Positions 7,759 to 45,159 of a stretch of 45,620 nucleotides of DNA are shown piece by piece. Location: the IMG/VR virus record IMGVR_UViG_3300031857_000369, positions 1 to 45,620 of that record; one strand, written 5' to 3'. Both the position numbers and the translations under genes were made by a program. Each line of letters begins with the position of its first letter. Positions within the stretch are counted from its first letter, which is position 1. Under the pieces are notes generated by a model. That model had not been told where the DNA came from and ran no database searches. It saw only the letters and a program-made list of their open reading frames with translations. Origin of the DNA: a virus.

Positions 7759-7767
7759 TATAAATAT
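7759..7767 (-). promoter_or_regulatory. Candidate late promoter element before the 766-aa baseplate gene
   Basis: The coding strand reads ATATTTATA ending 11 bases before the ATG at 7747. It is one copy of the recurrent element described in the findings. Function is inferred from recurrence only. Confidence 0.45.
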
Positions 7768-7774
7768 GAGGTAA

Positions 7775-7812
7775 TTAAAGAAACAAATATAGGAGAAATT
7801 AATCTCCTATAC
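7775..7812 (-). terminator. Probable intrinsic terminator after the 60-aa gene
   Basis: On the coding strand a stem ATAGGAGA / TCTCCTAT with a short loop is followed by the T-rich run TTTGTTTCTTT. It lies just downstream of the stop of the 60-aa gene and upstream of the element preceding the 766-aa gene, so it would separate two transcription units. Confidence 0.6.
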
Positions 7813-7840
7813 TAATAATTTTTATTAAAATTAATTCCTA

Positions 7841-8023
7841 TTATCTAGGAGGATTATCTAAATATCCTGATGGTGTTTCACCTTTATAGTTAGATAATTG
7901 AGTTGAATTTACTGATACTGTTGGGTCAATATCAGCTACTTTAGGTGGAGTTTCACCTTTATATGCTGTTAATAATGAGCCTTCAGATTGAAGTCTACCT
8001 ACAATTCCTTTGTTTTCTGCCAT
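7841..8023 (-). CDS. 60-aa protein paralogous to the N-terminus of the 766-aa baseplate protein
   Basis: A short protein of 60 aa without a known catalytic motif. It contains two copies of an S-x-L-x-x-Y-K-G-E-T-P-P-like motif (about residues 15-27 and 40-52). The same double motif, with the same spacing and a similar lead-in of G-I-(V/I)-x-x-L, begins the 766-aa protein encoded next. The gene therefore looks like a duplicated, free-standing N-terminal module. It may be an assembly chaperone, a plug, or a competitor for the same binding site; this is speculative. It has its own candidate promoter element 23 bases upstream and a terminator downstream, implying separate and possibly abundant expression. 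Confidence 0.75.
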   Translation of the reverse strand: MAENKGIVGRLQSEGSLLTAYKGETPPKVADIDPTVSVNSTQLSNYKGETPSGYLDNPPR

Positions 8024-8046
8024 GTTATTATATTTTTAAGGTTTAT

Positions 8047-8056
8047 TATAAATATT
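8047..8056 (-). promoter_or_regulatory. Candidate late promoter element before the 60-aa gene
   Basis: The coding strand reads AATATTTATA, 23 bases before the ATG at 8023. It is a member of the recurrent set. Confidence 0.5.
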
Positions 8057-8072
8057 ATATTTTTAATTAAAA

Positions 8073-11000
8073 CTAACTCAATGTTGAATAATCTCTTACT
8101 AGATATTGAGGTGTGTAAGGACTTAATTTTCTAGCGACAACTTCTCCATCTAAAGATAATTGAACACTTGTATCTTTAGTTTGAATAGCTTTAAGTACAT
8201 TAATAGCTTCTCTTAATGTTTTAACAACCTCATCATTTGAATTAATATTTGAGGTATTATTAATTAGTACTGGGTTGTTGTTGTTTGTAGTGTTGAGATT
8301 AGAGGATTCAATTGGAGTAGTTGTAGGTTTAATAGATGGTTCCATTAAATAATTAATAGCGCTAAATAAAGCTCCTCCAACTCCTCCTTGAGTACCTCCT
8401 TGTAATGTAGCTTCTAATAAATCTTTAGGTTTAGCAGGTTCAGTAGTTAAAGATCCATTTAAAATTTTGCTTAACAATAATTCATTTTCTGTTAATTTAG
8501 CTATAGCTGTAGATATAATTTCAGTTATATTAGTTTTAGTAAAAGATGAAGTAGACATAGCTTCACTAGTAGATAAAGCAAATGCTTGATCTTGTTTTAT
8601 TCCTTGGGCTATAGGCTGTAATTCACCTTGATTAAATTTAGCTATAACTAAACCACCATTTTCTTTTAAGCCTTTATTTTTCTTAATTATACCATCTTGC
8701 ATTTGGACTACAAGATCTTGACCTTTAATAGGTTCAGTAGCTAAACGGCTATCTGAACTTTGGGTTGGGACCATATATTCTTTTTCAGCTTTTTCTAATT
8801 GTTGTTGGGCTGCTTTTTGTCTTAGTTGTTGATTTTTTTCTACATCTCCGATTCCTCCAAGTAAATTACTTACTATCCTCATTACATCTTCTAGGAGATA
8901 TGTCTCACCAGCTGCCTTCTGTTGAAGATTAGATTTCCCAAAAATCATTTGATCGATATCTGATGGGGAATATTGGTATTCTAGGCTCTTTAAATACTGT
9001 TGTTTGGTTTGATCAGCGCTAACTCCTTTTCTTTGTTCTTCTAGTTGAGATATATCTTCTCCTTGAGCTTTCTTTTCAGCTATTTGTTTATCAAGAGATT
9101 CAGCTTGTTGTTGAGTTTGAAATTCTTTTACTTCACTTTCAGACATTAATCCACCAGTGAGTACACCTGTTAATCCTTTTGCTTCAACTGAGGTTACAAA
9201 TCTAGTTATAAAATCAGCTAATTTATCTAAAGATCCCCCATCAACAAATCGAGTAAATATTTCTTTAGCTTTTTCTAATACCTCATTGAACTTTTCTTGA
9301 GCATCTTGAGATGATAAGGATTGGTATGCTAAATCACCTAAAGCAGAAGATAAATCTTCAGATGACTTACCAGCTGCTTTTAAAGCTTGATAGTATTCAA
9401 GAATTGTTCCTTTACCAACTTTTAATAATTGTAATTGTTTATCTGTTAATGCTCCTGTTTTTTGAATTTGTTTAAAAGCATCATCACCTAATTTTTGGAA
9501 TTCACCTCTAGCTTTACTTAAAGACTCTTGTTCAACTAACATATTAGCGAACTCATCTTTGCTCATACTGAATATGGCTGCTATTGCCCCTTGTTGGACA
9601 CGGTTTAGGTCACCGAATTCTTCAGCAGTGCCTATTTCTCTTTGTATTTCAGTAGCTAAAGTTTCAAAGTCATTATTAAGAGCTGCTAATCTAGCCTTTT
9701 CTAAATTAAAAGACTTACCAAGTAATAATTCTGCTTCTAATTCAGCAGTTATAGAAGTTTCAAATTGTAGTAAACCATCAGCTATACCAGATACTTTTTC
9801 TAAAGATAAACCTAATCTTTGGGCTTCTATAGCAGCTTTAGTTAAACCATCAACTCCTCCTTTTACAGATAATCTAATAGCATTACTAACTTTTAAAACA
9901 TTTTCAAGAACTTTTCTTTCATTTATTAAAATACCTGTTTGTGCTTTGTAAAGAGAAGCTGTACCTAAAATTCGTTTAGCTATTTGATCTTGAGAAATTG
10001 TAGTGTTCTTTAATTCTTTATTAGAAATTAAAAACTGTTTAAGTAATCCTTGTGATTCTTCTTCACTTAATTTTAAAAATTTACTAACTATAGCAAATTG
10101 ACGAACTATACTTTCACCACTTTCACCAAACTGAGAGCTTAGATCAATAGAAGTACCTAATATTTCATTAATTTTTAAATTAGCATTTACTAATTCTTTT
10201 TGAGTTATTAATTGATTATCTAATAAATCATTATATTTAGAGGTATTTGTAGCTATTTCACTAAATCTATTTCTAACTTCACGAGCAGCATCTTTACTAA
10301 TAACTAAACTTTTAGCTAGATTTGTAACTTGTTTATCTGCTTCAAACATAGCATCAACAAAAAACTGAATAGCTTTGATAATACCTGTAATGGCTATTAA
10401 CCATGGGTTAAAACCTTTAAGGAGGTTACTTCCCATAGACATTAAACCACCACCCATAACTTTAAACTGTTGACCAAATGTTAAAGCTTGTTTACCATTT
10501 TGAGTATAATTGGCTGTTAATTTAGCCATCTTTTTAGTAGCGTCATCAATACCTAGCATATCAGCTAGTCTACCAAATCCTGTTTTATCAAGTGCTCCTT
10601 TAAGATTTTTGCCTATATTAAGACCAAAAGATTTGTTAATATTATTAACTCTACTTTCAGTATCTTTTAAAGATTTATTTAATTTTTCATATTCTTCATT
10701 TTGTCCTGAGATGTATTCTTGGGTTTTAGCTGTAAGTGTCTCATTAGCTTTAAGTTTACTTGTAATAGTTTCTTCATTTTCTACCAATTGAGCTTTTTTA
10801 ATTGATAGTTCATCTACTATTCGTTTTTTTTCTTCTGTAGTTTTATTACTATTTTCTTCTGCTTTTATTTGTTGTTCAATATCTTGAATGCTCTCATTAG
10901 TTTTTCTTTTTTTATCTTCAAGACTTTCTTTTTCAATGCTTAATAAATTTAGATTGCGAGTAAAACTTTGTTTTTCTAATTCAGCTTTTTTAATTAATTC

Positions 11001-12473
11001 TTCAACATCTTTTTTATTAACATCAACTATGTTTTCTTGATATTCTTGATTCTTTTGAGCTATATCAGATAAAGTTTGGAAAGATTTAGACATACTTTTA
11101 CTGATTTGGTCAGTAGTTGCTATATCATTAACCATATTTTTAAAGCCTTCATCTATTTTATTAATAGAATCTACAGCTATTTGATTTAAAGTAGCTCGAA
11201 TCTCATTATATTCTTTATTTTGACCTTTAATAGTTTCATTTAACTTCTTTTGAACTTCAGCATTTATATTTATTTTATTTTCTACTTCTTCAAGTATTTG
11301 TGTTTCTTTTTTATATAAATCTTGAATTTCTTTTAGACGTTGTTCTTCTTCATCATCCAATTTCCTTGATGCTTTTAGTTTTTCTAAGTTATCTTTAGTA
11401 ATTTTTAAAGAATTTTGCTTAGACTCACTAATTATCTTTTCACTTTTTAATCTTTTTTCATCTTCTTGAAAAGTCTTAACAGATTCAATAAATAATTTTT
11501 TCTTAGACTCTAATTCTTTTAATGAATTTTTAACTTCTTTTTCACTTAATTCTGATATACCGGATTGGTGGTCTAAGGCTCTTTGGGCTAGAGTAGTAAG
11601 AGAACCAAATGCTTTGGTTATTCTAGATAAATTTGCATCTATAGATAAAGTTTCTTTAACAGTATTTTTAAAACGCTCATCTAAATTTTTAATATTTTCA
11701 AATTTAACTTCTCGATTAATTCTTTTAAGAGAAAGTTCTAAACCTTCAGTTAAAGCATCATAATTCTCTAATACAGCAGTATTTTGCTCTAACATATAAG
11801 CATTTGTTTTGATCTGGTTTTCTACAGATTTATATTCTCTGTTTACTTCAGCAATTCTTATACGTTCTTCTTTAAGTTGTTCTCTTTTCTTAATCTTATC
11901 TTGTACTGATAAGTCTGTGTTATTTTTTAGATTTTTACCTGTTTTTAGTTCTTGCTGTAGAGCGTTAATGGATATTTCTAATTTTTGTCTTTCATTTCCA
12001 ATAGATTTTCTATCAATTTCATTTGTTATTTGTTTTTTTTCTAATAATTCATTAGCTGTTACTAATCTTTCTTTACTAGTCTCTAATAGTTTTAAATTTT
12101 TAGATACATCTCTTTCAGACATATCCATAATTCCTTTTTGATAGTATTGGATTTGATCTGCTATAGACTTAAAACCATTGTATATCTTTATAGATTCATT
12201 AAGACCTTCATTAGTATCTTTTATTTCTTCTAAAATTCTCCTAAAACCTACAGCAGCATAACTTATATCACCTGTTATTTCAGTCCATTCTTTTTCTAAT
12301 CTATTTAGTTGTTGACGAGCATTACCAGTTTGCTGTGCTTGATTAGCTGTGTTAGAGGCCGCTATTCCTGTTAATTTATCAATTTTTTGTAAGAGTTCAA
12401 TAAGTCTTTTTAACTCTTTTTCATTTAATTGATTAGGATTTGGTGTAGGATTATTACTAGAAGTTGTAGCCAT
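8073..12473 (-). CDS. Tail tape measure protein (1466 aa)
   Basis: The longest protein of the window. It determines tail length and is carried inside the tube; it is the counterpart of T4 gp29. The N-terminal about 640 residues are dominated by charged, heptad-like coiled coil (Lys/Glu/Leu-rich). That region contains three related units, recognisable by GIMDMSERDV (about 114), GISELSEKEV (about 305) and NIVDVNKKDV (about 481), each following a run with IADQ/LAQR/IAQK. A hydrophobic, Gly-rich segment (about 672-710, with WLIAITGIIKAIQFFVDAMF) could cross or disturb a membrane during DNA ejection. The C-terminal half is helical with Gln-rich parts. Its place directly after the chaperone pair is canonical. 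A candidate late element overlaps the end of the preceding frame. Confidence 0.92.
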   Translation of the reverse strand: MATTSSNNPTPNPNQLNEKELKRLIELLQKIDKLTGIAASNTANQAQQTGNARQQLNRLEKEWTEITGDISYAAVGFRRILEEIKDTNEGLNESIKIYNGFKSIADQIQYYQKGIMDMSERDVSKNLKLLETSKERLVTANELLEKKQITNEIDRKSIGNERQKLEISINALQQELKTGKNLKNNTDLSVQDKIKKREQLKEERIRIAEVNREYKSVENQIKTNAYMLEQNTAVLENYDALTEGLELSLKRINREVKFENIKNLDERFKNTVKETLSIDANLSRITKAFGSLTTLAQRALDHQSGISELSEKEVKNSLKELESKKKLFIESVKTFQEDEKRLKSEKIISESKQNSLKITKDNLEKLKASRKLDDEEEQRLKEIQDLYKKETQILEEVENKININAEVQKKLNETIKGQNKEYNEIRATLNQIAVDSINKIDEGFKNMVNDIATTDQISKSMSKSFQTLSDIAQKNQEYQENIVDVNKKDVEELIKKAELEKQSFTRNLNLLSIEKESLEDKKRKTNESIQDIEQQIKAEENSNKTTEEKKRIVDELSIKKAQLVENEETITSKLKANETLTAKTQEYISGQNEEYEKLNKSLKDTESRVNNINKSFGLNIGKNLKGALDKTGFGRLADMLGIDDATKKMAKLTANYTQNGKQALTFGQQFKVMGGGLMSMGSNLLKGFNPWLIAITGIIKAIQFFVDAMFEADKQVTNLAKSLVISKDAAREVRNRFSEIATNTSKYNDLLDNQLITQKELVNANLKINEILGTSIDLSSQFGESGESIVRQFAIVSKFLKLSEEESQGLLKQFLISNKELKNTTISQDQIAKRILGTASLYKAQTGILINERKVLENVLKVSNAIRLSVKGGVDGLTKAAIEAQRLGLSLEKVSGIADGLLQFETSITAELEAELLLGKSFNLEKARLAALNNDFETLATEIQREIGTAEEFGDLNRVQQGAIAAIFSMSKDEFANMLVEQESLSKARGEFQKLGDDAFKQIQKTGALTDKQLQLLKVGKGTILEYYQALKAAGKSSEDLSSALGDLAYQSLSSQDAQEKFNEVLEKAKEIFTRFVDGGSLDKLADFITRFVTSVEAKGLTGVLTGGLMSESEVKEFQTQQQAESLDKQIAEKKAQGEDISQLEEQRKGVSADQTKQQYLKSLEYQYSPSDIDQMIFGKSNLQQKAAGETYLLEDVMRIVSNLLGGIGDVEKNQQLRQKAAQQQLEKAEKEYMVPTQSSDSRLATEPIKGQDLVVQMQDGIIKKNKGLKENGGLVIAKFNQGELQPIAQGIKQDQAFALSTSEAMSTSSFTKTNITEIISTAIAKLTENELLLSKILNGSLTTEPAKPKDLLEATLQGGTQGGVGGALFSAINYLMEPSIKPTTTPIESSNLNTTNNNNPVLINNTSNINSNDEVVKTLREAINVLKAIQTKDTSVQLSLDGEVVARKLSPYTPQYLVRDYSTLS

Positions 12474-12489
12474 GTGTTAAAATATATAT

Positions 12490-12499
12490 TATAAATATT
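12490..12499 (-). promoter_or_regulatory. Candidate late promoter element before the tape measure gene
   Basis: The coding strand reads AATATTTATA, 16 bases before the ATG at 12473, overlapping the stop codon of the upstream frame. It is a member of the recurrent set. Confidence 0.5.
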
Positions 12500-12809
12500 A
12501 ATATTTTGGGGCTTTATTGGTTAATTTACCTTTAAAATGATCTGGGAGTTGTATTTTGCCTTCACGAATAGCCCTAGTTTGAGATGCTAGATCTCCGTTT
12601 TCATTTCCATTCTTTTCTTCATAATACTTTCTCATTGTGTGGAAAGTAAATTTACGAAGCCAGATAGGCATGTTATAGACTGTTCCCCAGTCATAACCGC
12701 CTTGGCTATGAAACACCATTTCATGAATTTGTGTAAATAAATTAACTCTATATTCTTTGGCTATCTCAGAGGTCAGGCCAAAAAAAGCTAAGTCTAATTG
12801 GAATGTCAA
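12498..12809 (-). CDS. Tail assembly chaperone, downstream frame reached by frameshifting
   Basis: This frame encodes up to 103 aa but has no ATG near its beginning; the first possible start is a TTG at 12809, and an in-frame stop lies only about 13 codons upstream of it. It overlaps the 3' end of the 244-aa gene. Both frames read through the same run of seven T on the coding strand, where the upstream frame reads AGC TTT TTT TGG and soon stops. A -2 (or +1) slip there would join 240 residues of the first protein to about 93 of this frame, including GLTSEIAKEYRVNLFTQIHE and a basic/aromatic segment near WLRKFTFHTMRKYYEE. This is the classic G/GT-type arrangement between tail tube and tape measure genes; phage Mu is the known -2 example. 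Alternative: independent start at TTG, or a sequencing indel in the T run. Confidence 0.75.
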   Translation of the reverse strand: MTFQLDLAFFGLTSEIAKEYRVNLFTQIHEMVFHSQGGYDWGTVYNMPIWLRKFTFHTMRKYYEEKNGNENGDLASQTRAIREGKIQLPDHFKGKLTNKAPKY

Positions 12810-13500
12810 CTTTTGAGTCGCTCCCTTCGGGAAAAAAGGTCAGATCAATGTCTGGTTGTACCTCCTTTACATACTCCCTAAACGCTCTGGAGTCACGAGC
12901 TAAAAGATTATTATCAACAAACTCTCTAATAGTTTTAGATTCTCTATTACCTTCAACTGAGGTAATCATATATTTCAAGCGAGTTGATAATTCAGGTACA
13001 TTATTTTTATTTATTTTTTTAAATCCTTCTAATTCAGCATTAATGGTTTTTTCATCAGCACCTGTTAAAAGTTTAAAAGTAATTTTAGTACCTGTTGAGG
13101 GAAGAGTATATTCAAATTCATTTACACCTTTAGTATATAAATGTTCTAATATAGGTTTATTTTCAACAGTTGTAAGATCAATTGTTTGTTCTTCACCATT
13201 GTAAGTGAATGTATAATCTTTACCATAACCTAAAATACGAGCGGCTACTAATAAAGCATTTTTATCACCTACAACCATATCTTCATATTTAACATTTGGT
13301 GTGACAATAAGAGATTTAATTACTTCATCTAATACTGTTCCTTTTTGAATGTAGGATTGATTTGTTAGAATATCTTCTTCTTTTGCAGTCATATATTTCA
13401 TTTCAACTTCACCGCTTGAAAGAGGATTTGTTTCTAAGTAAACTAAACCTTTTGAAGGCAATTCAACCATTTCGGTTGGCATACTAAACTTATTTTCCAT
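12766..13500 (-). CDS. Tail assembly chaperone / T4 gp26-like baseplate family protein (244 aa)
   Basis: It begins with MVELPSKGLVYLETNPLSSG-type sequence (about residues 10-28) followed by MTAKEEDILTNQSYIQKG, a pattern seen in the T4 gp26-like family (T4 base plate protein family) and related tail assembly chaperones. Such proteins bind the tape measure protein during tail assembly and are usually absent from the virion. It lies between the tail tube and tape measure genes, the standard position. The last four codons (Trp-Pro-Asp-Leu) follow a T7 slip site that can redirect ribosomes into the overlapping downstream frame. A candidate late element lies 33 bases upstream. Confidence 0.8.
   Translation of the reverse strand: MENKFSMPTEMVELPSKGLVYLETNPLSSGEVEMKYMTAKEEDILTNQSYIQKGTVLDEVIKSLIVTPNVKYEDMVVGDKNALLVAARILGYGKDYTFTYNGEEQTIDLTTVENKPILEHLYTKGVNEFEYTLPSTGTKITFKLLTGADEKTINAELEGFKKINKNNVPELSTRLKYMITSVEGNRESKTIREFVDNNLLARDSRAFREYVKEVQPDIDLTFFPEGSDSKVDIPIRLSFFWPDL
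12778..12789 (-). promoter_or_regulatory. Programmed frameshift site in the tail chaperone genes
   Basis: The coding strand is AGC TTT TTT TGG in the upstream frame: seven consecutive T followed by GGCC. A -2 slip gives TTT then GGC, and a +1 slip gives GGC directly; both enter the downstream chaperone frame. A -1 slip would give TTG GCC TGA and stop at once, so it is not productive. Confidence 0.65.
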
Positions 13501-13533
13501 AAATAATTTTGTTATAACATTTTGTTTGTTACT

Positions 13534-13543
13534 TATAAATATA
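13534..13543 (-). promoter_or_regulatory. Candidate late promoter element before the chaperone gene
   Basis: The coding strand reads TATATTTATA, 33 bases before the ATG at 13500 and just upstream of it in the same intergenic space as the tube-gene terminator. Confidence 0.45.
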
Positions 13544-13582: not shown

Positions 13583-13603
13583 TATAAATATTGGGTTGAA
13601 CTT

Positions 13604-14092
13604 TTAGTAGTTTAACACGGCGTAGTCAATTGCTAATGTCATAGTGATATTAATAGCTTGGTTTTCAGTGTCCCAGTTATATTCACCAAATTTAGCATCT
13701 TTTACAAAAGCGCCTTTAAGTACCCATTCTGCCACTACATCACCTACAGGACCAAGAGCATTGATTACTAAATCCTTCTTGTAGAAGTCTGAGTATCCGT
13801 CTCTACCTGTTACTGATTCATGTGATAAGCGAACCCATTCCATAATCGTTTGAGCACCAGATGGTGAAATTGGATCGTGAAGTGTCATAGTTACATCATC
13901 CCAAATTGTCTTACCTTTTACTTTACGTAAAACGTTAATATGGTTTAATACTACTTCACCTTGGGTTAAGCCTACTGCGCTCACACCTTTAATCATCCAA
14001 GTTGGTATTCCATCAGCGTACAGGATAAATCGGTTAGCCTGTTTTGGTTCAAACGCTGTAAAAAACATTTCATTTGCGTCTATAATTGCCAT
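13604..14092 (-). CDS. 19: Tail tube protein, gp19-like (162 aa)
   Basis: The tube subunit that stacks in hexameric rings inside the sheath. Length (162 aa; T4 gp19 is 163) and pattern fit the family: an N-terminal F-E-P-K-Q-A-N-R-F segment, W-M-I-K-G-V, the T-I-W-D-D-V-T-M-T-L-H-D-P strand (about residues 61-74), and W-V-L-K-G-A-F-V near residue 122, ending in I-T-M-T-L-A-I-D-Y. It follows the sheath gene and is closed by a strong terminator, as expected for an abundant product. The base composition looks a little richer in G+C than the fibre genes, consistent with selection for high expression. Confidence 0.95.
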   Translation of the reverse strand: MAIIDANEMFFTAFEPKQANRFILYADGIPTWMIKGVSAVGLTQGEVVLNHINVLRKVKGKTIWDDVTMTLHDPISPSGAQTIMEWVRLSHESVTGRDGYSDFYKKDLVINALGPVGDVVAEWVLKGAFVKDAKFGEYNWDTENQAINITMTLAIDYAVLNY

Positions 14093-14114: not shown

Positions 14115-14124
14115 AATAAATATT
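14115..14124 (-). promoter_or_regulatory. Candidate late promoter element before the tail tube gene
   Basis: The coding strand reads AATATTTATT, a one-base variant of the recurrent element, about 22 bases before the ATG at 14092. Confidence 0.4.
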
Positions 14125-14142: not shown

Positions 14143-15840
14143 TTATTCAAAAGTTGCACCTGTTGGAGTAATTGTGAAGTTTAAGTAAATAAATTCAGCT
14201 GTCTTAGTTGGTTGTAAGTAAATTTGGCCTACTAATTCATTTCTGTCAATTACAGCTGCATTATTAATAGAATCATCCATTACTACTTTAAATGCGTATA
14301 AACCTTGACGTTGTTGAACTGATTCAAGATATGGATTCACTTGAGCTAAGAATGAGTTTCTTGTAGAAGCATTATTAGGTTGGAATACAATTGTATTAGC
14401 AATCTGACCAATTGTTCTCTTAAGAGCAATCATTAAACGGCGAACATTAATACGATCAAGAGCTGATGCTTTGGTTTGTAAGGTTTTCTGACCATAAACT
14501 ACAACACCTTGTCCTGGGAAGGTTGAGATTGGATTAACTTTACCTACATATAAATCATCACGAATTCCTTGAGATAATTTAGAAGCTGCTCTAATTACAG
14601 AGCTTAATCCTCCTCGGTTAATACCTGCTGGGGCGAACCATGGCTCAGCTACTCTATCATTAAATGCATATACACCTGGTATCATGGTTGAAGCAGGTAC
14701 AAATACATATTGGTTAGTAGCAGGGTCAAGTGTTTGAACCCAAGGGTAATAAGCAGCTACATATGATGAGTCAATTGAAGCTGCTGTATTTATCACTTCG
14801 CTAGCTGAAGATGAATAATTACCTAAATCTATTACAAGGATATTATCACCTCTTTCTTGAGTGTTTGTAATAATAGTATCTAATTCTGTATCGTGATCTG
14901 CGTAATTTAATCCAGGGATAATTAAAGTATTAAATTGGAAATCATTAGCACTCTTTAATAAATTAATTGAAGATGTGTAATTAGCTGCTTGTAAACCTTG
15001 AATATTGGTTGATTCGATTTGATCATAAAATTTAGCTGTTGTTGATGAAGCACCTGTACCACCATTAAATGATCCTGATCCGTTAGCTGGGATGAGATTA
15101 ATATAAGAAGGATTTGGAACACCACCTAAGAAATATTGTGGAGTAGGTGTAAATACTTGGCCTATTCTAACATATCTTGATTTATTAGGATAAGTACCAG
15201 TAATTTGTAAAGTATCTTCACCGTCAATATTTTCTTGAGTAAATTGATAATCACCAATTCTTCTAGCTACATAATTATCATCTAATGGATCCATTGATAA
15301 TCCAGTGTATGTTTCTAGAATAGCTTTATTTTTGTTATCATCATCACCTCTACGAATATACAAGTTAAATGTACCAGAAGATGTTTTAGATGATACAATT
15401 TCCCAGCGAATATTATTAGCTGATCCTGATGGTAAAGCACCTGTAGATGTAGGAGTACTAAAGCTGTTTTGCATTGCTCCTTCAGAAATAGTAACTAAAC
15501 TAAATGCTGGGTTTGTAGCTATATTAGTAATAGATGAAGAAGCAGGAGAATAAGTACCTGACACTACACGGGTTACTAATAATGTTTGACCACCATTTTG
15601 GAAGTAATTATAAGCTGCAATAGATGTGAAATATGAGTATGAACCTGAGTTAGGAATAACTTCAGTCTCACCAAAACGATTAACGTAGTCAGTATATGAT
15701 GTTACTGTCACAGGAATACCAACAGGTCCTTTAACTGTTGGACCGATAATAGCAGCACCAATTTGAGGTGGTTGTTCCGCTATAAATGAGGCGTCTATCT
15801 CTCTTGATAAAACACCTGGGGATAATAAAATTTCTGCCAT
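14143..15840 (-). CDS. 18: Contractile tail sheath protein, gp18-like (565 aa)
   Basis: The contractile sheath subunit. The N-terminus (LLSPGVLSREIDASFIAEQP, about residues 4-23) is the typical sheath start, followed by GAAIIGPTVKGPVGIPVTV. The C-terminal part has the conserved sheath fold: NRGGLSSVIRAASKLSQGIR, then VYGQKTLQ, RINVRRLMIALKR and a final IYLQPTKTAEFIYLNFTITP. The Ser/Thr-rich middle (about 100-260) is the variable outer domain. At 565 aa it is somewhat shorter than T4 gp18 (659 aa). It is followed immediately by the tube gene. Confidence 0.96.
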   Translation of the reverse strand: MAEILLSPGVLSREIDASFIAEQPPQIGAAIIGPTVKGPVGIPVTVTSYTDYVNRFGETEVIPNSGSYSYFTSIAAYNYFQNGGQTLLVTRVVSGTYSPASSSITNIATNPAFSLVTISEGAMQNSFSTPTSTGALPSGSANNIRWEIVSSKTSSGTFNLYIRRGDDDNKNKAILETYTGLSMDPLDDNYVARRIGDYQFTQENIDGEDTLQITGTYPNKSRYVRIGQVFTPTPQYFLGGVPNPSYINLIPANGSGSFNGGTGASSTTAKFYDQIESTNIQGLQAANYTSSINLLKSANDFQFNTLIIPGLNYADHDTELDTIITNTQERGDNILVIDLGNYSSSASEVINTAASIDSSYVAAYYPWVQTLDPATNQYVFVPASTMIPGVYAFNDRVAEPWFAPAGINRGGLSSVIRAASKLSQGIRDDLYVGKVNPISTFPGQGVVVYGQKTLQTKASALDRINVRRLMIALKRTIGQIANTIVFQPNNASTRNSFLAQVNPYLESVQQRQGLYAFKVVMDDSINNAAVIDRNELVGQIYLQPTKTAEFIYLNFTITPTGATFE

Positions 15841-15881: not shown

Positions 15882-15890
15882 GATAAATAT
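15882..15890 (-). promoter_or_regulatory. Candidate late promoter element before the sheath gene
   Basis: The coding strand reads ATATTTATC, about 41 bases before the ATG at 15840. It is a slightly diverged member of the recurrent set. Confidence 0.35.
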
Positions 15891-16171: not shown

Positions 16172-16181
16172 TATAAATATT
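16172..16181 (-). promoter_or_regulatory. Candidate late promoter element before the 82-aa gene
   Basis: The coding strand reads AATATTTATA, 13 bases before the ATG at 16158, touching the stop codon of the upstream gene. Confidence 0.5.
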
Positions 16182-18657: not shown

Positions 18658-18667
18658 AACTTATTTT

Positions 18668-22822: not shown

Positions 22823-22832
22823 TATAAATATA
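22823..22832 (-). promoter_or_regulatory. Candidate late promoter element before the 1334-aa fibre gene
   Basis: The coding strand reads TATATTTATA and ends only 4 bases before the ATG at 22818. An imperfect palindrome with TAACAA / TTGTTA arms (22831-22844) abuts it. Confidence 0.4.
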
Positions 22833-27161: not shown

Positions 27162-27171
27162 TATAAATATT
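27162..27171 (-). promoter_or_regulatory. Candidate late promoter element before the 709-aa fibre gene
   Basis: The coding strand reads AATATTTATA, 15 bases before the ATG at 27146. It is a member of the recurrent set. Confidence 0.5.
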
Positions 27172-31103: not shown

Positions 31104-31113
31104 TATAAATATT
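31104..31113 (-). promoter_or_regulatory. Candidate late promoter element before the gp13-like gene
   Basis: The coding strand reads AATATTTATA, 14 bases before the ATG at 31089, directly downstream of a terminator. The arrangement terminator, element, gene supports a promoter role. Confidence 0.55.
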
Positions 31114-31121: not shown

Positions 31122-31150
31122 ATAAAAGACCCCTAAATTGGGGTCCTTTA
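31122..31150 (-). terminator. Intrinsic terminator after the 399-aa fibre gene
   Basis: The coding strand has the stem GACCCC / GGGGTC around an AATTTA loop, followed by TTTTATTTT. It separates the fibre pair from the neck operon. Confidence 0.8.
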
Positions 31151-32386: not shown

Positions 32387-32396
32387 TATAAATATA
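32387..32396 (-). promoter_or_regulatory. Candidate late promoter element before the SHAEG fibre gene
   Basis: The coding strand reads TATATTTATA, 16 bases before the ATG at 32370. It is a member of the recurrent set. Confidence 0.5.
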
Positions 32397-34301: not shown

Positions 34302-34311
34302 TATAAATATT
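34302..34311 (-). promoter_or_regulatory. Candidate late promoter element before the 122-aa gene
   Basis: The coding strand reads AATATTTATA, 14 bases before the ATG at 34287. Here the extended sequence TATTTATAAATA also contains a forward TATAAATA box on the coding strand. Confidence 0.5.
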
Positions 34312-35018: not shown

Positions 35019-35028
35019 TATAAATATT
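35019..35028 (-). promoter_or_regulatory. Candidate late promoter element before phoH
   Basis: The coding strand reads AATATTTATA, 13 bases before the ATG at 35005 and 10 bases after the capsid-gene terminator. Confidence 0.55.
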
Positions 35029-35037: not shown

Positions 35038-35066
35038 ACAAAAAAGCCCTGCTTTTGCAGGGCTTA
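35038..35066 (-). terminator. Intrinsic terminator after the major capsid gene
   Basis: The coding strand has a perfect stem GCCCTGC / GCAGGGC with an AAAA loop, followed by TTTTTTG. It is a strong terminator for the most abundant virion product. Confidence 0.9.
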
Positions 35067-38054: not shown

Positions 38055-38090
38055 ATTAAAAAAGAAATGCCCCACTTTTGTGAGGCATCA
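38055..38090 (-). terminator. Intrinsic terminator before the scaffold-capsid operon
   Basis: The coding strand has TGCCTCAC / GTGGGGCA (one U-G pair) around an AAAA loop, followed by TTTCTTTTTTAAT. A second perfect inverted repeat, CTTAAAAT / ATTTTAAG (38093-38111), lies immediately before it. It ends the transcription unit of the 83-aa gene. Confidence 0.8.
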
Positions 38091-38116
38091 GTCTTAAAAT
38101 ACTATTTTAAGAGGAG

Positions 38117-38368: not shown

Positions 38369-38379
38369 AATAATTTATT

Positions 38380-38985
38380 TTAGAATATTGGGCAAGTTCC
38401 ATTAGCACAAAGTATGTCTGTAATAATAGAATTTACTTTATAATATTGGTTGTTGTTAACAGTTTTACTTTCATTTAATGCTACTTCTTTCATGTATGAG
38501 CCTGGGTTGGAAGGTGTTGAGACAAAGTCCCAACATAGTAATTCGAAGTCGTCTTGTACTTCCATTAATTCACCTTTTTGTTTTAATGAACCCATTCCTC
38601 GAGATGATACACCTACAGGTATACCATTTTGAAATAAAGCAGCTAAGATGTTACCTGATGGTGTGGGTAGTATTTCTATAGCACCCATCACATGGTCTCC
38701 ATCCCACCATATTTTTTTAATATTATGAGATACATTTTTTAAATTAATGATAGAAGAATCAGGGTGATCTAATTCACCTAGTGCTCTATTATACTTAACA
38801 TTATCCATATACTTATCAATTTCTCTATCCCATAACTCTTTTGAGTAATAACGGCCATTACCGTTTTTTACTTCGGCTGTGGCTAATATTCCTTCAACTA
38901 AAGGATTACCTGTTGAAGATTTTCCTTCAATTAGTTTAACAGGTTTAGCTGTAAAGGTTTGAGTCTCAATAAGAATTTGTTTCAT
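38380..38985 (-). CDS. 21: Prohead maturation protease, gp21-like (201 aa)
   Basis: A serine protease of the T4 gp21 type that degrades the scaffold and trims the capsid protein. Visible signatures: GNGRYYSKELWDREI (about 43-57), ALGELDHPD with the putative catalytic His74, and GIPVGVSSRGMGSL with the catalytic Ser at 127 or 128; the later FELLCWDFVSTPSNPGSYM segment is also typical. I chose the ATG at 38985 (MKQILIET) rather than a TTG nine codons upstream that would overlap the preceding gene. Length is close to T4 gp21 (212 aa). Confidence 0.95.
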   Translation of the reverse strand: MKQILIETQTFTAKPVKLIEGKSSTGNPLVEGILATAEVKNGNGRYYSKELWDREIDKYMDNVKYNRALGELDHPDSSIINLKNVSHNIKKIWWDGDHVMGAIEILPTPSGNILAALFQNGIPVGVSSRGMGSLKQKGELMEVQDDFELLCWDFVSTPSNPGSYMKEVALNESKTVNNNQYYKVNSIITDILCANGTCPIF

Positions 38986-38995
38986 AGTTACACTA

Positions 38996-40048
38996 TTATT
39001 TATTAGGAGCAACTTTTACATTTTTTAATAAATCTGTCTTTTTTAATTTTTCAGCTGTTTCTTCTGCTTTTTTTTCTGAATCTCTAAAAGCTATAGCTAC
39101 AGTTTTACCATTGTGTTCAAAAGTTACTTTATGGGTATTTGTTCCGATACTTGAGATAGCAGCCCCAGCTTGTTTTAAAGCTTTTTCTTTTAAAGCATTA
39201 AGTTTTTTCTCTTCTTCAGTTTTATTAGTATCTTCAGCTAATATTTCTTTAGCTAACAAATAAATTTGAGAACGTAATACTGATTCTTTTAAATCACCGT
39301 AACCTGATGATTTATGTTTGCCTTTAGCAGGTTTTGGTTCGCCTAAACCAGGAGCATCTACAGTGTATCCTACACCTTTAGTACCAAATTGACCATTTTT
39401 AACATAATGGTTAACATCTTTAGCTAAATTCTTAGCTACAATTTGTCTTAATTCTTCAACATGTTTACCTTCATTTTTAGGATCTTTCATTTCAGTGTAA
39501 TATCCTTTTAAGAATTCTTCACCAAATACATTATCATAATTCTTAGTATCCTTATAATCATAACCATGAGTAGCCATATCAGTTACTTCTTTAGTGGTTT
39601 CTTTTTCTTCAGCTTTAGCTTCTTTAGCTTCAAAGATTGCATCATTTAAATTTGGATCAGTATCTTGATACATTAAAAATTGTTTTGCTTCTTTTTCAGA
39701 CTCAAATGATTTTTCTTTAATTCCATCTTTTGTACGATAAGTAACAATCCAAAATCTACCTTCAGGTCTAATACTATTAATTTCATTATGGCCTAAATTT
39801 TCTTTTTTAAGATTAATCATGTTCTCATTAAAGATAGCGTGCCAATCTTGCTTTTTACCTGTAGTAACTACACCACCAATGCCTTCAGCAATAATACTTC
39901 TATTTTTAAGAATACGCACTGTATCTTCATAAGTATTAACTGGGGTGATAAGGTCAGGAAATAAGTGACGAGCAGATTTAAAAAAATGCTGTTTATTGCC
40001 TTTACCTTCTTTAATAAGATTATATTGTTCTTGTAATGTATTTCTCAT
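38996..40048 (-). CDS. Unknown head-region protein (350 aa)
   Basis: A 350-aa soluble, highly charged protein that I cannot assign. It starts MRNTLQEQYNLIKEGKGNKQ, has FWIVTYRTKDGIKEKSFESE (about 98-117) resembling a short beta hairpin, a Lys/Glu-rich middle, a Gly-rich stretch near VGYTVDAPGLGEPKPAKGKH, and a final beta-alpha piece with HKVTFEHNGKTVAIAFRDSE. Its place in the portal-protease interval, where T4 has prohead core genes, suggests an internal head or core protein. It starts one base after the preceding gene stops, implying coupling. Confidence 0.75.
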   Translation of the reverse strand: MRNTLQEQYNLIKEGKGNKQHFFKSARHLFPDLITPVNTYEDTVRILKNRSIIAEGIGGVVTTGKKQDWHAIFNENMINLKKENLGHNEINSIRPEGRFWIVTYRTKDGIKEKSFESEKEAKQFLMYQDTDPNLNDAIFEAKEAKAEEKETTKEVTDMATHGYDYKDTKNYDNVFGEEFLKGYYTEMKDPKNEGKHVEELRQIVAKNLAKDVNHYVKNGQFGTKGVGYTVDAPGLGEPKPAKGKHKSSGYGDLKESVLRSQIYLLAKEILAEDTNKTEEEKKLNALKEKALKQAGAAISSIGTNTHKVTFEHNGKTVAIAFRDSEKKAEETAEKLKKTDLLKNVKVAPNK

Positions 40049-40049
40049 G

Positions 40050-40550
40050 TTATGTAAATAATTTTATTGCTCTATCAAGTATTGAAATAGCTAAATCAGT
40101 ACCATATACTGATTTTTTTTCTGGTGTTTCTCTGTAGCTATTGATAGTTTCTTTTTTAGCTTCTTGAATTAGTTTAATAAGGTTTTTTAACTTATCCGCT
40201 ATTAGATCAAAATCTCCTAATCGTCCCGCGATATATTGTTTTGTTTCATCATCAACTCCTAAATTATTGACAAAACCTTCAATGTCAAATTTAGGTTCTT
40301 CTTCTTCCCATAACTGTTTTACTTCAATACCTTTAGCAGCTTTATTTAAAACTTTTTGATTTACAGGCTTAAAACCAAGTTTATAATAATAGATATTTTT
40401 AGCACCTTTAGCTTTTTTATTTGGATTAAAAGCATAAGGTGTAGCATAATTTTTACCAGAACCTGCAGTAAAAGAAGCACCAGTACCTGTAGCGCTTATT
40501 TCTTTTAATTTAGTTTGAATAAGTTCTTTTATTTTCTCTTTTTTACTCAT
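40050..40550 (-). CDS. Unknown head-region protein (166 aa)
   Basis: A 166-aa protein beginning with a Lys/Glu-rich helix (KEKIKELIQTKLKEI), then an ATGTGASFTAGSGKNYATPY segment resembling the small-residue, TP-aF-containing segments of other phage head-region proteins. An acidic patch (WEEEEPKFDIEGFV) and a C-terminal helical domain follow. No catalytic motif. It overlaps the upstream gene by 8 bases (ATG inside the end of that gene), so translation is probably coupled. A prohead core or internal head protein is plausible from context only. Confidence 0.75.
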   Translation of the reverse strand: MSKKEKIKELIQTKLKEISATGTGASFTAGSGKNYATPYAFNPNKKAKGAKNIYYYKLGFKPVNQKVLNKAAKGIEVKQLWEEEEPKFDIEGFVNNLGVDDETKQYIAGRLGDFDLIADKLKNLIKLIQEAKKETINSYRETPEKKSVYGTDLAISILDRAIKLFT

Positions 40551-41400
40551 TTACTGCTTCTAACTCTTCAACTAATTGATAATGTTGAAGAAGGTTAATT
40601 AAATGATCATCATTAACTTTATCTGTTTTACCTAAACTTGGTAAAATATTTACAACCTCATTTACTTTTATTTGGATAGCTTTATTAGTCACTTTTTTAT
40701 TTAAAGTCAATAAAGTATTTCTGATTTCATTTATTTTAGTATTATAGAACTCTCTTAATTTAGGTGTGTTATCAACACTATTAATAAATTCTTTTAATAC
40801 TGATTTTTGACGTGGGTTTAAGTCAGCATACTTATCATTAAATTTTTCTAGTAATACCCTATATGCTAATACTCGAATATCTTTATCTTGATTTCTAAAT
40901 TCTTCTAAGATATTTTCTTTAACTTCTTTTTTATTAATAGGAAATTTAACAAGATATTCTAGTAAAACTGTTTTGTTTTCTATAATCTGGTTAGGGTTAG
41001 ATAGGTTTTCGCTGTTGTATACTTCTAGAAGTGTAAATAAAGCTGCTTGTGCTTTATAGTTTGGTAATTTAGTTTTAAAGAATTCTTCTAAATTATAGTG
41101 ATTTTTAATTTCTTTAATTAAATTATACTTTTGTCTTCTTAAAATAGAACGATTTAATTGTTTAGAACTTTCTATGAGTGTACTAATAACCATATCAGCT
41201 TTAGCCTCACTAGTATTAGTATGTCTAAAAAAACTTTCATATAACTTATACTCTTTTCCTAATTCTGTTTTACCAAAATATTTTTTTAAAATATTAGTTG
41301 CTGGTGATTCAACACCTGATAGTGTGTCAGCTGTAATTTGTCTTACTAATAGTTCAAAAAGGATACTAGTATTTTTATACTTTGAATGTTTTATAATCAT
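40543..41400 (-). CDS. Unknown all-helical protein next to the portal gene (285 aa)
   Basis: A 285-aa protein that seems entirely helical (for example KNTSILFELLVRQITADTLS near the N-terminus, AQAALFTLLEVYNSENL, and DIRVLAYRVLLEKFNDKYAD). There is no membrane segment or enzymatic motif. Placement just after the portal gene and before the protease suggests a head-assembly role. It has a candidate late element 20 bases upstream and is the first gene of an apparent four-gene set. Confidence 0.75.
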   Translation of the reverse strand: MIIKHSKYKNTSILFELLVRQITADTLSGVESPATNILKKYFGKTELGKEYKLYESFFRHTNTSEAKADMVISTLIESSKQLNRSILRRQKYNLIKEIKNHYNLEEFFKTKLPNYKAQAALFTLLEVYNSENLSNPNQIIENKTVLLEYLVKFPINKKEVKENILEEFRNQDKDIRVLAYRVLLEKFNDKYADLNPRQKSVLKEFINSVDNTPKLREFYNTKINEIRNTLLTLNKKVTNKAIQIKVNEVVNILPSLGKTDKVNDDHLINLLQHYQLVEELEAVNE

Positions 41401-41420
41401 TCTAGGGTAAATATTTTAAT

Positions 41421-41430
41421 TATAAATATA
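41421..41430 (-). promoter_or_regulatory. Candidate late promoter element before the 285-aa gene
   Basis: The coding strand reads TATATTTATA, 20 bases before the ATG at 41400. A related AAATATTTA lies slightly closer to the start. Confidence 0.5.
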
Positions 41431-41440
41431 TATAGAGATA

Positions 41441-43330
41441 TTATTCTCGTATTTGAGACTCATCTAATAATGAAGATTCTTCTTTTTTAATTGATAATTT
41501 TTTACTTAAAGACTCTAATAAGGTTTTATTTTTAAGTTGAGTTTCTAAAGCTAAAGGTGATCCACCTTTAAAATTATTTCTTAAGGATACATCTTCACCT
41601 GTTGCATCTCCTTTTTTCATACCAATATTACCTAATCTATCTTTACCTAAAGTACTTTGTTGTGTACCAGCAATAGATGCTTTTTCTTTAGGTCTACCTA
41701 GAGGTTCATCTTTATCATAACCATCAGGAACACCAATTCCATTTCTTCCAGAACCATATAAAGCTGCTAAATCATGAGGTGTACCATATGACTTACCAGA
41801 TTCAAGTGGATCATTACCTTCATTTTCAATTTGTTTAAATCTAAAGATACGTTTTTGGTCTTCAGCTATTAAATCTCTATACTCATCATATTGATCTTGG
41901 CTAAGATGGAATACATTATCATAAATCCAATCTGTAGGTAGTAATTTACCATCAATGATATCTTTAGCTAAAGATACTTTTTCTTTCATTAATGCTATTC
42001 TTTCTTGATCATAAATTATAGAAGGAGTAGTTAATGATAATTCAAAATTAGTTAATTGATCATTTTTATAACCTTGAGTATATAAATGCACTAAAGCAAT
42101 TTTATATAATTCTGAGAGTATAATTCTTTGGATGCGATCAATTGTGCGAGCAAAACGAATATCTTCAGCTGCTAATGTTGCCTTACCTGTTAAATCTTTT
42201 TCATAACCCATAAAAGCTTTAGGTACTTTTAAAGCTGCAAATAGCTTATCTCTTAAATAAGTTACATCTTCAATAGCTGTATAATCTAAACCTTTAGTAG
42301 TGTCAATTTTAGTAGTAGTATCATTACCACGAATGGGGATAAAGAAATCTTCTAATGAATTTTGTAGGTTATATTTTAAATTATACTCACCTGTTTGTGG
42401 ATCCATAAATGGAGTCCTCTTCATTTGTGAAATAGTTTTTTGCATAAAATTTTCTACTTCATTTGGAGGAATAGAACCTACATTAACATAAAATACTCTT
42501 TTTTCAGGAGCACGAACAATACGATGGATTAACATTGCATCTTCCATCAAGATGTATTGTTTAAATAATTTACGAGCAGGCTCTAAATAAGAACGACCAT
42601 ATGGAAGGTAATTCACATCAGTAATTAATCTGAAGTGAGCCATCTCGTAATTATCAAAATAAATTGAGGTATCATTTTTATTAGTGCTGTAAGTGCCTTG
42701 TCCTGTCACACCATAAAAACCTGTAGCACCACCGGAAAAACCATCTGGGCTAAATCTGTATCTTACCTCAGCTGGGTTTTTAGGGTCATAGTGTTCTTCC
42801 CTCATAATATGATAAGCAGTATATGGGATGACGTTATAAACTCCAAATTTTTCCGCGATTTCTAATTTTAAAAAGAAGTCACCATACTTACACATTTGGC
42901 GAATCCAAGACCAAAGATTAAATTCAACATTTAATACATCATAAAATAAATTATAAAGAATTTTTTGTGTATCTTCATTTGAACTTTTAATTTGAAGTAC
43001 CTCACCCATATCATTTTTAAGAGTACATTCATCAGCTATGATATCAAGAGCAGAAGCTACAATAGCATCTGTATCCATTGCATCATAATCTGAGTATACT
43101 TGGGTGCGTAAGTATCTCCAGTTGAGGTTTAATTGAGCTCCAAAAAGTGATGTACTATTACTAGAGTAGATACGATTAAATCTGTCTACTAAAGCATTAG
43201 TTTGGAATTCACCTGTTGCTTGGATGCTATTAACATCCATTACTTTAAGCTGATTACCACCAGCATTACGAATTATTACATCTGTTGAGAATAATTTCCT
43301 TAATCTTGAAAAAACACTTGTATCAGCCAT
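41441..43330 (-). CDS. 20: Portal vertex protein, gp20-like (629 aa)
   Basis: The dodecameric DNA-packaging portal. Signatures include YRYLRTQVYSDYDAMDTDAIVA-type sequence near residues 67-88, SALDIIADECTLKNDMGEVL, and the strongly diagnostic RIVRAPEKRVFYVNVGSIPP followed by NEVENFMQKTISQMKR. Later segments YEKDLTGKATLAAEDIRFAR and RIQRIILSELYKIALVHLYT form the wing/stem region. The C-terminal about 90 residues are Gly/Asp-rich and probably flexible. Length exceeds T4 gp20 (524 aa), mainly through the C-terminus. It follows the terminase gene, with a candidate late element 18 bases upstream. Confidence 0.96.
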   Translation of the reverse strand: MADTSVFSRLRKLFSTDVIIRNAGGNQLKVMDVNSIQATGEFQTNALVDRFNRIYSSNSTSLFGAQLNLNWRYLRTQVYSDYDAMDTDAIVASALDIIADECTLKNDMGEVLQIKSSNEDTQKILYNLFYDVLNVEFNLWSWIRQMCKYGDFFLKLEIAEKFGVYNVIPYTAYHIMREEHYDPKNPAEVRYRFSPDGFSGGATGFYGVTGQGTYSTNKNDTSIYFDNYEMAHFRLITDVNYLPYGRSYLEPARKLFKQYILMEDAMLIHRIVRAPEKRVFYVNVGSIPPNEVENFMQKTISQMKRTPFMDPQTGEYNLKYNLQNSLEDFFIPIRGNDTTTKIDTTKGLDYTAIEDVTYLRDKLFAALKVPKAFMGYEKDLTGKATLAAEDIRFARTIDRIQRIILSELYKIALVHLYTQGYKNDQLTNFELSLTTPSIIYDQERIALMKEKVSLAKDIIDGKLLPTDWIYDNVFHLSQDQYDEYRDLIAEDQKRIFRFKQIENEGNDPLESGKSYGTPHDLAALYGSGRNGIGVPDGYDKDEPLGRPKEKASIAGTQQSTLGKDRLGNIGMKKGDATGEDVSLRNNFKGGSPLALETQLKNKTLLESLSKKLSIKKEESSLLDESQIRE

Positions 43331-43348
43331 TTAAATTAAATTATATAT

Positions 43349-43358
43349 AATAAATATT
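43349..43358 (-). promoter_or_regulatory. Candidate late promoter element before the portal gene
   Basis: The coding strand reads AATATTTATT, a one-base variant, 18 bases before the ATG at 43330 and overlapping the terminase stop codon. Confidence 0.45.
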
Positions 43359-44928
43359 ATAGTAACCAGCTTATATTTTCATCTTGCCCACCAATATTCA
43401 TACTATATGGATTAGGAACACCATTTCTAGTGTAATTACCTTGTGGGTTTGGACGAACAGTAGCCATGTTACTTAAAGTAGCACGAGTTAAATCTAAACC
43501 TTGCGTTTTATATTTTAAAGCTGTGTCACGAATATACATTCCGATAGCAAAACTCATAACTAAATCATCATTATAACCAGATTGTGCTTCAGGACGTCCA
43601 TTTCTCCATATAAATACTTTCATTTCTTCAAGAAGACGTTTAGATTGTATATTAACACTTTTATCTCCAACATATTCTCTAAATTTATTTATAACTAACG
43701 GACGAGTTCTCATAGACATTGTAAAACCTGGTGTCATTCTTGATGGGTCATCTGTTCTTTCTAAATAAGTTTCCGCGTTTAATGCTTCACTTTTTGGAGA
43801 ATAGTATAAATTTCTGTATCCTCTTTCAATAATTGAGTCAAGAGCTGACCATCCTATGTTAGCATTTTCAACAACTAGTAACGCATCATTATATTCTGTC
43901 GCGATACTTACTAATAAATAACCAAATTCTTTTGGTGATATTTGACTTTTATACTCAGCTACTTGTGTATTTAACTCAGTATCTATCACATGAAATGTTG
44001 AAAAATCTTTACCATCTCCACGAGCTACATCAGCAACTACCATATAATTACGTGTGTAATCTGGTAGCTCCCATATCCATAAATTATGATCTATACCACG
44101 TTTTTCTAAAGGATCTTTAACAGAGGTTGCGAAAATAAAGTCTAGTTGTTCACTATAAAATACAGTATCACCTGAAGTGTTAAAATCACAATCGCATTCT
44201 TGTGCTGCTAATCGTGGATCTCCTAATAGTTCATCTTGTTTTTTTCTCCAATATTCATCACGTTCAGGGTGAACATACCATGGAAGTTTAATAGGTAGAA
44301 AATCATTTTGTTGTGCTTCTGCTCTAACCCATGTTTGATGAAACCAATTACCAGTACCATATGGAGTAGATAATACAATTGCTCCACCACCAGTTGCTAA
44401 GGTTTGTTGAGCAGATGCCCATATCTCACCAATTCCTTCAATAAATGCTGCTTCATCAATTAATAAAAGTGATACTGCTTCTGATCGACCCGCATCACCT
44501 GCTGCTGAAACTGCTTTAATTTGAGAGCCATTACTTAATCGTAGTGTTAATTTATTATTTTCTTCAGCATGTACTTTTAACCAAGAAGGTAAATTCTCAA
44601 ACATGAATTTAACTTTTGTTACCATGTTTTTAGCTGTTTCTTGTTTAGTAGCTATACAAAGAACATTTTTATCTTTTTGAAACAACATTAACCATAATGA
44701 GTAACCAGCAGTTAAAGTTGAGATACCTAATTGACGAGATTTAAGTACTATATTATATGGATTATCCCTCCATAAACGTAATACTTTTTCTTGGAATGGA
44801 TATAAATTAAATAATATCCTACCACGAGTAGGATGCTGTATATGACAGTATTTTTTCATAAAGTGAGCTGGGTCTTGAGCGCACTTTAAGTATTCATCCC
44901 TTATTATTTGTTTTAAGTCTTGAGACAT
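43357..44928 (-). CDS. 17: Terminase large subunit, gp17-like (523 aa)
   Basis: The packaging motor ATPase and headful nuclease. ATPase landmarks: the variant Walker A SRQLGIST (64-71), Walker B LLLIDEA (154-160) with the catalytic Glu159, and the coupling motif LSTPYGTG (187-194). The nuclease domain has VADVARGD (Asp300), VVEN (Glu354) and NDDLVMSF (Asp454/455), the expected acidic triad of the RNase H-like fold. Length is somewhat shorter than T4 gp17 (610 aa). The gene follows a 63-aa gene; no small terminase subunit is recognisable in the window. The start ATG at 44928 lacks a Shine-Dalgarno. Confidence 0.97.
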   Translation of the reverse strand: MSQDLKQIIRDEYLKCAQDPAHFMKKYCHIQHPTRGRILFNLYPFQEKVLRLWRDNPYNIVLKSRQLGISTLTAGYSLWLMLFQKDKNVLCIATKQETAKNMVTKVKFMFENLPSWLKVHAEENNKLTLRLSNGSQIKAVSAAGDAGRSEAVSLLLIDEAAFIEGIGEIWASAQQTLATGGGAIVLSTPYGTGNWFHQTWVRAEAQQNDFLPIKLPWYVHPERDEYWRKKQDELLGDPRLAAQECDCDFNTSGDTVFYSEQLDFIFATSVKDPLEKRGIDHNLWIWELPDYTRNYMVVADVARGDGKDFSTFHVIDTELNTQVAEYKSQISPKEFGYLLVSIATEYNDALLVVENANIGWSALDSIIERGYRNLYYSPKSEALNAETYLERTDDPSRMTPGFTMSMRTRPLVINKFREYVGDKSVNIQSKRLLEEMKVFIWRNGRPEAQSGYNDDLVMSFAIGMYIRDTALKYKTQGLDLTRATLSNMATVRPNPQGNYTRNGVPNPYSMNIGGQDENISWLL

Positions 44929-44943
44929 AACTAATTAGAAATT

Positions 44944-45135
44944 TTATACAAAATCAACTGGGTTTTCGGAGGTACCAAGTTTAGGGTTTTTTGTTTTTGT
45001 GCGAGCCGTATTGATAGCAGATTGTTTTTGTTGTGGAGTTAATTTACTAGGATCACCAGCTACATCTATTGTTTCCTCATTTAGTATTTCAACAATAGCT
45101 TTTTCAATTTCTTTTTTTAATTCTGAGCGTTTCAT
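44944..45135 (-). CDS. Small protein upstream of the terminase gene (63 aa)
   Basis: A 63-aa protein: a charged N-terminal helix (KRSELKKEIEKAIVEILNEE), a loop with AGDPSKLTPQQKQSAINTAR, and a short polar end. It ends 15 bases before the terminase start. It is far too short for a normal small terminase subunit (T4 gp16 is 164 aa) and has no visible DNA-binding motif, so I leave it unassigned. A candidate late element lies 14 bases upstream of its ATG, so it may open the terminase-portal transcript. Confidence 0.7.
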   Translation of the reverse strand: MKRSELKKEIEKAIVEILNEETIDVAGDPSKLTPQQKQSAINTARTKTKNPKLGTSENPVDFV

Positions 45136-45149
45136 TGGTATAGTTTGGG

Positions 45150-45159
45150 TATAAATATT
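45150..45159 (-). promoter_or_regulatory. Candidate late promoter element before the 63-aa gene
   Basis: The coding strand reads AATATTTATA, 14 bases before the ATG at 45135, touching the stop codon of the upstream gene. Confidence 0.5.

Follow-up and report, generated by a model that had tools for sequence, protein, structure and literature searches.

The window, meaning the whole stretch of DNA analyzed here, is a 45.6-kb IMG/VR virus record with 32% G+C, probably a fragment, and its minus strand carries nearly all of its genes. Matches to PHROG families assign it to a T4-superfamily myovirus, of which it covers the structural half, as follows:

43357-44928: terminase, gp17-like
41441-43330: portal, gp20-like
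38380-39012: prohead protease
35089-36765, minus strand: major capsid protein, gp23-like (phrog_138)
34310-35005: PhoH
29926-31089: neck or head-tail adaptor protein
14143-15840: sheath
13604-14092: tube

Judged by the terminase, the closest isolates are the Flavobacterium phages immuto (60% identity) and Microcystis phage Mel-JY01 (52%), the enzyme of Rhodothermus RM378 being distant (34%). A related 163-kb contig, G001, is colinear with the window and matches many of its proteins at 50-96% identity. The window phage is a large T4-like virus whose hosts are probably Flavobacterium-type bacteria. Genes 25017-27146 and 31171-32370 have matches to phrog_25468 in common and perhaps encode related fibre proteins. 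A gap between two structural genes, at 37930-38380, contains a plus-strand ORF (38031-38405) overlapping a minus-strand ORF (38117-38368), as well as a terminator-like hairpin at 38066-38089. The stretch 18658-18813, between 18814-22818 and 17536-18657, looks coding (it reads ...GYLY... before a stop, and G001 reads similarly) and is possibly a short or frameshifted tail-fibre end.

The initial annotation of this DNA had noticed a recurrent element before about 16 gene starts, mostly at a distance of 11-23 bases, and had listed 11 of its sites. All 11 exist: the exact plus-strand sequence TATAAATATT stands at 8047, 12490, 16172, 27162, 31104, 34302, 35019, and 45150, and the sites at 7759, 41421, and 43349 are one base off. 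We count 17 promoter-like sites before 16 genes, and the spacing from TATTTATA to the start indeed lies in most cases between 11 and 23 nt, the shortest being 4 and the longest 82 nt. These putative late boxes, and two of the hairpins beside them, are as follows, fractions giving the orthologous upstream regions in which the box recurs:

45150..45158, minus: box ATATTTATA before gene 44944-45135
43349..43357, minus: variant box ATATTTATT before the portal gene 41441-43330; ATATTTA in 69/87 distinct orthologous upstreams
41421..41429, minus: box ATATTTATA before 40543-41400; 87/90 distinct orthologous upstreams
35044..35065, minus: terminator-like hairpin, 9 pairs and a T-run, upstream of the PhoH box
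35019..35027, minus: box directly after that hairpin, before the PhoH-like gene 34310-35005; 28/32
34302..34310, minus: box before 33919-34287; 25/25
32387..32395, minus: box before 31171-32370
31123..31150, minus: terminator-like hairpin, 11 pairs and a T-run, upstream of the 31104 box
31104..31112, minus: box directly after that hairpin, before the neck/head-tail adaptor gene 29926-31089; 33/49
27162..27170, minus: box before 25017-27146
22823..22831, minus: box 4 nt ahead of the first ATG of 18814-22818
16172..16180, minus: box before 15910-16158; ATATTTA in 16/17
15882..15890, minus: variant box ATATTTATC before the sheath gene 14143-15840; 15/15
14115..14123, minus: variant box ATATTTATT before the tube gene 13604-14092; 11/11
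13583..13591, minus: box upstream of a terminator-like hairpin, before 12766-13500
13534..13542, minus: second box, after that hairpin, before the baseplate-hub-like gene 12766-13500; 6/6
12490..12498, minus: box before 8073-12473 (tape-measure position)
8047..8055, minus: box before 7841-8023
7759..7767, minus: box after a hairpin, before 5447-7747

Hairpins with a T-run immediately precede at least four of the boxes, in line with the annotated placement directly after terminators. Gene 40543-41400 heads a run that includes the protease and major capsid genes. The major capsid gene has no box directly upstream, either in the window or in 61 orthologous upstream regions; it would be transcribed from the 41421 box, and the terminator-like hairpin at 35044..35065 would close its transcript. 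Since the 22823 box lies 4 nt from the first ATG, the transcript from it would be leaderless, or a later start would be used. A further site, at 34059, falls inside a gene, and one at 18711, absent from the initial list, was rejected as a promoter and excluded from our count, the sequence there reading as protein (...GYLY...) with the same reading recurring in G001.

The element is real and not a product of chance. This rests on its placement and strand, as its raw count over the whole window is only mildly unusual (47 one-mismatch matches against 34 expected). The coding strand carries 20 copies of TATTTATA and the opposite strand 7, and exact AATATTTATA occurs 10 times on the former and never on the latter. 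Within the 3.1 kb of intergenic DNA we observed 15 copies of TATTTATA, against 1.0, 1.4, and 1.8 expected under Markov models of order 1, 2, and 3, a number reached in 0 of 400 simulations for each order. The T4-orientation sequence TATAAATA is not enriched there (1 observed, 1.3 expected) and was dropped as a working box. De novo EM motif discovery on the 37 upstream regions of the window returned ATATTTAT, with a log-likelihood gain of 62.9 against 33.6 ± 2.7 (maximum, 41.1) for dinucleotide shuffles, and a scan for the sigma-70 consensus gave nothing above shuffles. The most tightly constrained unit is ATATTTAT, shifted one base to the left of TATTTATA.

Portal and PhoH scans of IMG/VR brought in 160 loci, and ATATTTATA with at most one mismatch was found in 281 of 319 orthologous upstream regions of related viruses, a count that does not represent independent events because the loci and contigs are related. 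Across these regions ATATTTAT is practically invariant and the following A is tolerant (247/281); flanks and distance to the ATG vary while the box is kept. The reverse-complement control gave 61 near matches with scattered mismatches and a single exact one, compared with 242 for the box itself, and TATAAATA occurs in 12 of the 319 regions versus 245 for TATTTATA. Genes that are boxed in the window keep the box in their orthologues and boxless ones are without it there too, so that the annotated restriction to operon heads is borne out by the counts for internal genes (0/61 for the major capsid gene, 0/39, and 0/32). Among 283 aligned sites, A occupies positions +12 and +13 in 88 and 92%, respectively, and an upstream TTTG or GTTG was seen in only 8.

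EM on structural-gene upstream regions of G001, of a further relative, G003, and of immuto likewise recovered the ATATTTAT box; it was not the top motif for the related contig G002, though plainly present in the site listing of that genome. The box favours structural over other genes in G001, G002, and immuto (Fisher P = 0.0018, 0.005, and 0.046, respectively). Three other contigs (G004, G005, and G007) show strand-biased TATTTATA, yet the candidate sigma gene discussed below was not found in them; these contigs may be incomplete. The 181-kb contig G008 has a PhoH 80% identical to that of the window and no strand bias of TATTTATA; having little beyond PhoH in common with the window, it was dropped as an out-group for covariation of sigma factor and box.

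The same phages carry a second, host-like promoter class. The Bacteroidota primary sigma factor uses promoters with a -33 TTTG, a -7 TAHHTTTG, and a start 4-5 nt downstream, as described in Flavobacterium johnsoniae (PMC6847099). Many genes outside the structural modules of G001, immuto, and G002 bear TTTG(G) or GTTG followed, after about 18-21 nt, by a -7-like element, and the consensus for non-structural genes of the relatives is TTTG(G)-N~20-TAnnTT[T/C]. EM on the non-structural genes of G001, G003, and immuto yielded a GTTTGG or TAT-TTTAG element, and the site listing for G002 gave the same split between structural and other genes. The -7-like element varies from phage to phage (TTATATTTAGg in G001; TTCGTATATTTAGGTAT in immuto; TATGTTCAC, GTATGTTTAC, or TATATTC in G002), whereas the late box is constant. 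Gene content and the T4 precedent suggest that the host-like class would serve early and the ATATTTAT class late transcription. Some host-like promoters have their -33 TTGG within the stem sequence of a hairpin that resembles a terminator (GCTTGGGAAACCAAGCCTTTTTTTGTATGTT), which means that a terminator and the next promoter share bases; we counted seven such sites in G002 (L186-L194; among them 56370, 66735, 75452, 119974, 122418, and 162272) and two each in G001 (L177-L185; 23709 and 79574) and G003, with none in a reversed-sequence control.

The candidate sigma gene does not lie within the window, itself probably a fragment, but five box-carrying relatives (G001, G002, G003, immuto, and Mel-JY01) encode one orthologous protein of 230-257 amino acids. 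The gp55 family phrog_234 matches this single orthologue in the first four, with E values from 3.8e-5 to 0.008, including the following:

G001, 147008-147718: candidate sigma factor, phrog_234 match
immuto, KNV73_gp118: candidate sigma factor, annotated as hypothetical, phrog_234 match

Sixteen of the 17 aligned members matched Sigma70_r2, the best with an E value of 2.3e-4 and a score below the Pfam curated cutoff, and hhalign of the candidate profile against gp55 gave P = 0.02. A tblastn search of phage records retrieved matches only in the immuto phages, Mel-JY01, and LR756508, and a sequence search of the PDB with the alignment gave no match. An AlphaFold model of the candidate (pLDDT 68, pTM 0.44) retrieved mostly sigma factors with Foldseek: the best E value was 0.17 in the PDB and 3.3e-4 in BFVD, for an unnamed protein followed by a phage sigma-E factor at 0.0047. 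Modeled alone, the C-terminal domain folds confidently (pLDDT 87) without any convincing structural match; its assignment as a sigma-4 domain was dropped. On these profile and model matches we lean toward regarding the orthologous protein as the late sigma factor, and slightly less firmly toward its pairing with the ATATTTAT box. Another sigma family, phrog_1740, found in RM378, G002, and G008, is a different protein that is not common to the box-carrying clade; G008 encodes two of its members (C1:16023-16526 and 72111-72629).

T4-like activation by a sliding clamp is possible in most of the group but unproven in all of it. No match to gp45 (phrog_223) or to the beta-clamp family was found in the relatives. 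However, G001, G002, G003, and Mel-JY01 have a gp44-like loader, which led us to drop the idea that the clamp is wholly absent from the group; PolB and a weak clamp candidate accompany these loader genes, and a weakly gp62-like gene occurs in G001 and is also annotated in Mel-JY01. The same searches found no gp44-like loader, gp62-like gene, PolB, or clamp candidate in immuto. Directly before the candidate sigma gene lies a small gene of 91-97 codons (G001:146736-147011; G002:141598-141873; immuto 77900-78193), a candidate co-factor, although a search for a gp33 co-activator gave no informative family match for it.

Several other explanations of the box deserve consideration. Were it a mere consequence of A+T-rich intergenic DNA, the modest excess over the whole window would be expected, but not the 15 intergenic copies where at most 1.8 are predicted, the 10:0 strand asymmetry, the EM score far above shuffles, or the conservation in orthologues, and we regard this explanation as negligible. 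The initial annotation had also offered a translation element, which would suit a host without Shine-Dalgarno (SD) sites: in many copies the ATG is 13-16 nt away, and SD-like sites are near absent from the window (1/37), G001, G002, G003, and immuto, just as they are nearly missing in Bacteroidota (PMC6847099). That proposal fails on spacing, the distance to the start ranging from about 4 to 80 nt and differing between orthologues, and internal genes of the same transcripts manage without the box. Mel-JY01 is informative here: SD-like sites occur at 54 of its 178 genes, yet its portal gene and several further structural genes are preceded by the ATATTTAT box, which often stands about 35-40 nt ahead of the start and in several cases is separated from it by an SD-like site. 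This phage also encodes the candidate sigma orthologue. The box thus seems to follow a phage protein rather than the host type of translation, and a role in translation initiation is very improbable. Although related to immuto of Flavobacterium, Mel-JY01 (L286:2971-3741; PP395634.1) is annotated as a Microcystis phage, and a host outside the Bacteroidota would agree with its use of SD-like sites.

The box could instead be the -7 element of ordinary Bacteroidota promoters, read by the unmodified host holoenzyme with sigma-A (sigma-ABfr). Its core ATATTTA fits the A-11 and TTT of TAHHTTTG, and F. johnsoniae promoters likewise have weak -33 boxes (PMC6847099). However, the nearly invariant host T-12 is A in 45% and T in 33% of boxes, the G-5 position is A in 280 of 281, and an extra invariant T follows; moreover, the same phages bear a separate class with T-12 and a TTTG/GTTG -33 at other genes, and the late box is unchanged in Mel-JY01, which uses SD-like sites. 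Recognition by host sigma-A is in our view unlikely. A middle promoter would account for the 13 of 165 non-structural G001 genes that are also preceded by the box, as would a site for RNA processing or DNA binding at the heads of operons, but the box is enriched at structural genes, a conserved A lies downstream at the expected start, and the boxes right after terminators sit where promoters would, so that such a role appears quite improbable.

We favor the reading that the box is a late promoter of the T4-like kind, with a probability of about 0.85 on sequence evidence. The initial suggestion of a late box for a diverged sigma factor is supported by the placement and conservation of the box, by the separate host-like class, and by the conserved sigma-like protein of box-carrying relatives. 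For the box we infer promoter activity, late use, and recognition by the candidate protein. The coding-strand element ATATTTAT(A)A...AA would act as a single -10-like element without a -33/-35 box at the heads of structural operons, would most likely be read by a gp55-like sigma factor that the phage encodes and that works with the host core RNA polymerase, and is predicted to direct initiation about 11-13 nt downstream of its first A, within the conserved AA.

Our search of the open-access literature turned up nothing relevant on TATTTATA phage promoters, on late promoters in Flavobacterium T4-like phages, or on Mel-JY01. The analysis yields a promoter map that can be put to use and names KNV73_gp118, of the cultured phage immuto, as a candidate late sigma factor; the T4-like clade concerned is common in metagenomes, and its transcription is otherwise uncharacterized. 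It also offers a natural test of the joint evolution of late promoter and sigma factor in a T4-type phage whose host bacteria have very different promoters, and of whether late transcription can do without a sliding clamp. More tentatively, and with less than even odds, this abundant clade may possess a distinct late system in which the gp55/gp33 split sigma is replaced by a single polypeptide that joins a gp55-like sigma domain 2 to a C-terminal helical domain of its own. This polypeptide would read ATATTTAT in hosts as unlike as Flavobacterium and the annotated Microcystis, in immuto without a detectable sliding clamp or loader.

The T4 late promoter is a single box without a -35 element (PMC2988020), the late box of cyanophage S-PM2 is NATAAATA (PMC2984593), and both are read by gp55, gp33, and gp45 (PMC2988020, PMC2984593). 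The window's box was initially described as the reverse complement of the T4 late box, which is literally true but misleading: TATnnATA has palindromic ends, so that replacing the central AA of TATAAATA by TT, without any change of strand, yields the same TATTTATA as reverse complementation does. Read on one strand, NATAAATA of T4 and cyanophages and NATATTTA(T) of the window differ in the two central bases only. This reading is simpler, places the start at the conserved A's, and makes an inverted T4 box needless. The AA-to-TT change brings the box closer to the Bacteroidota -7 element, with which it shares A-11 and a TTT run; it differs from the sigma-A promoter in having no -33, conserved T-12, or G-5 and in its extra conserved T and A-rich start. 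Common to the window phage group and to T4 and cyanophages are a single A+T box at about -12 to -6 without a -35 element, its position at the head of transcripts of virion genes, and membership in the T4 superfamily with homologues of gp17, gp20, gp21, and gp23. Unlike them, the group has TT for the central AA and an added invariant T (ATATTTAT), and its candidate sigma factor, which has a C-terminal helical domain in addition, has diverged so far that gp55 profiles hardly detect it. The late promoter of Aeromonas phage Aeh1, in which a/gC replaces TA at -13/-12 (PMC2988020), likewise shows T4-type late boxes drifting between lineages, but it departs from T4 at other positions. The window's box is thus a variant of the known T4 late promoter kind: a -10-like box without a -35 element, located at virion genes, whose coding-strand sequence is neither TATAAATA nor NATAAATA, and which by analogy would work like a T4 late promoter without the sequence that defines one.
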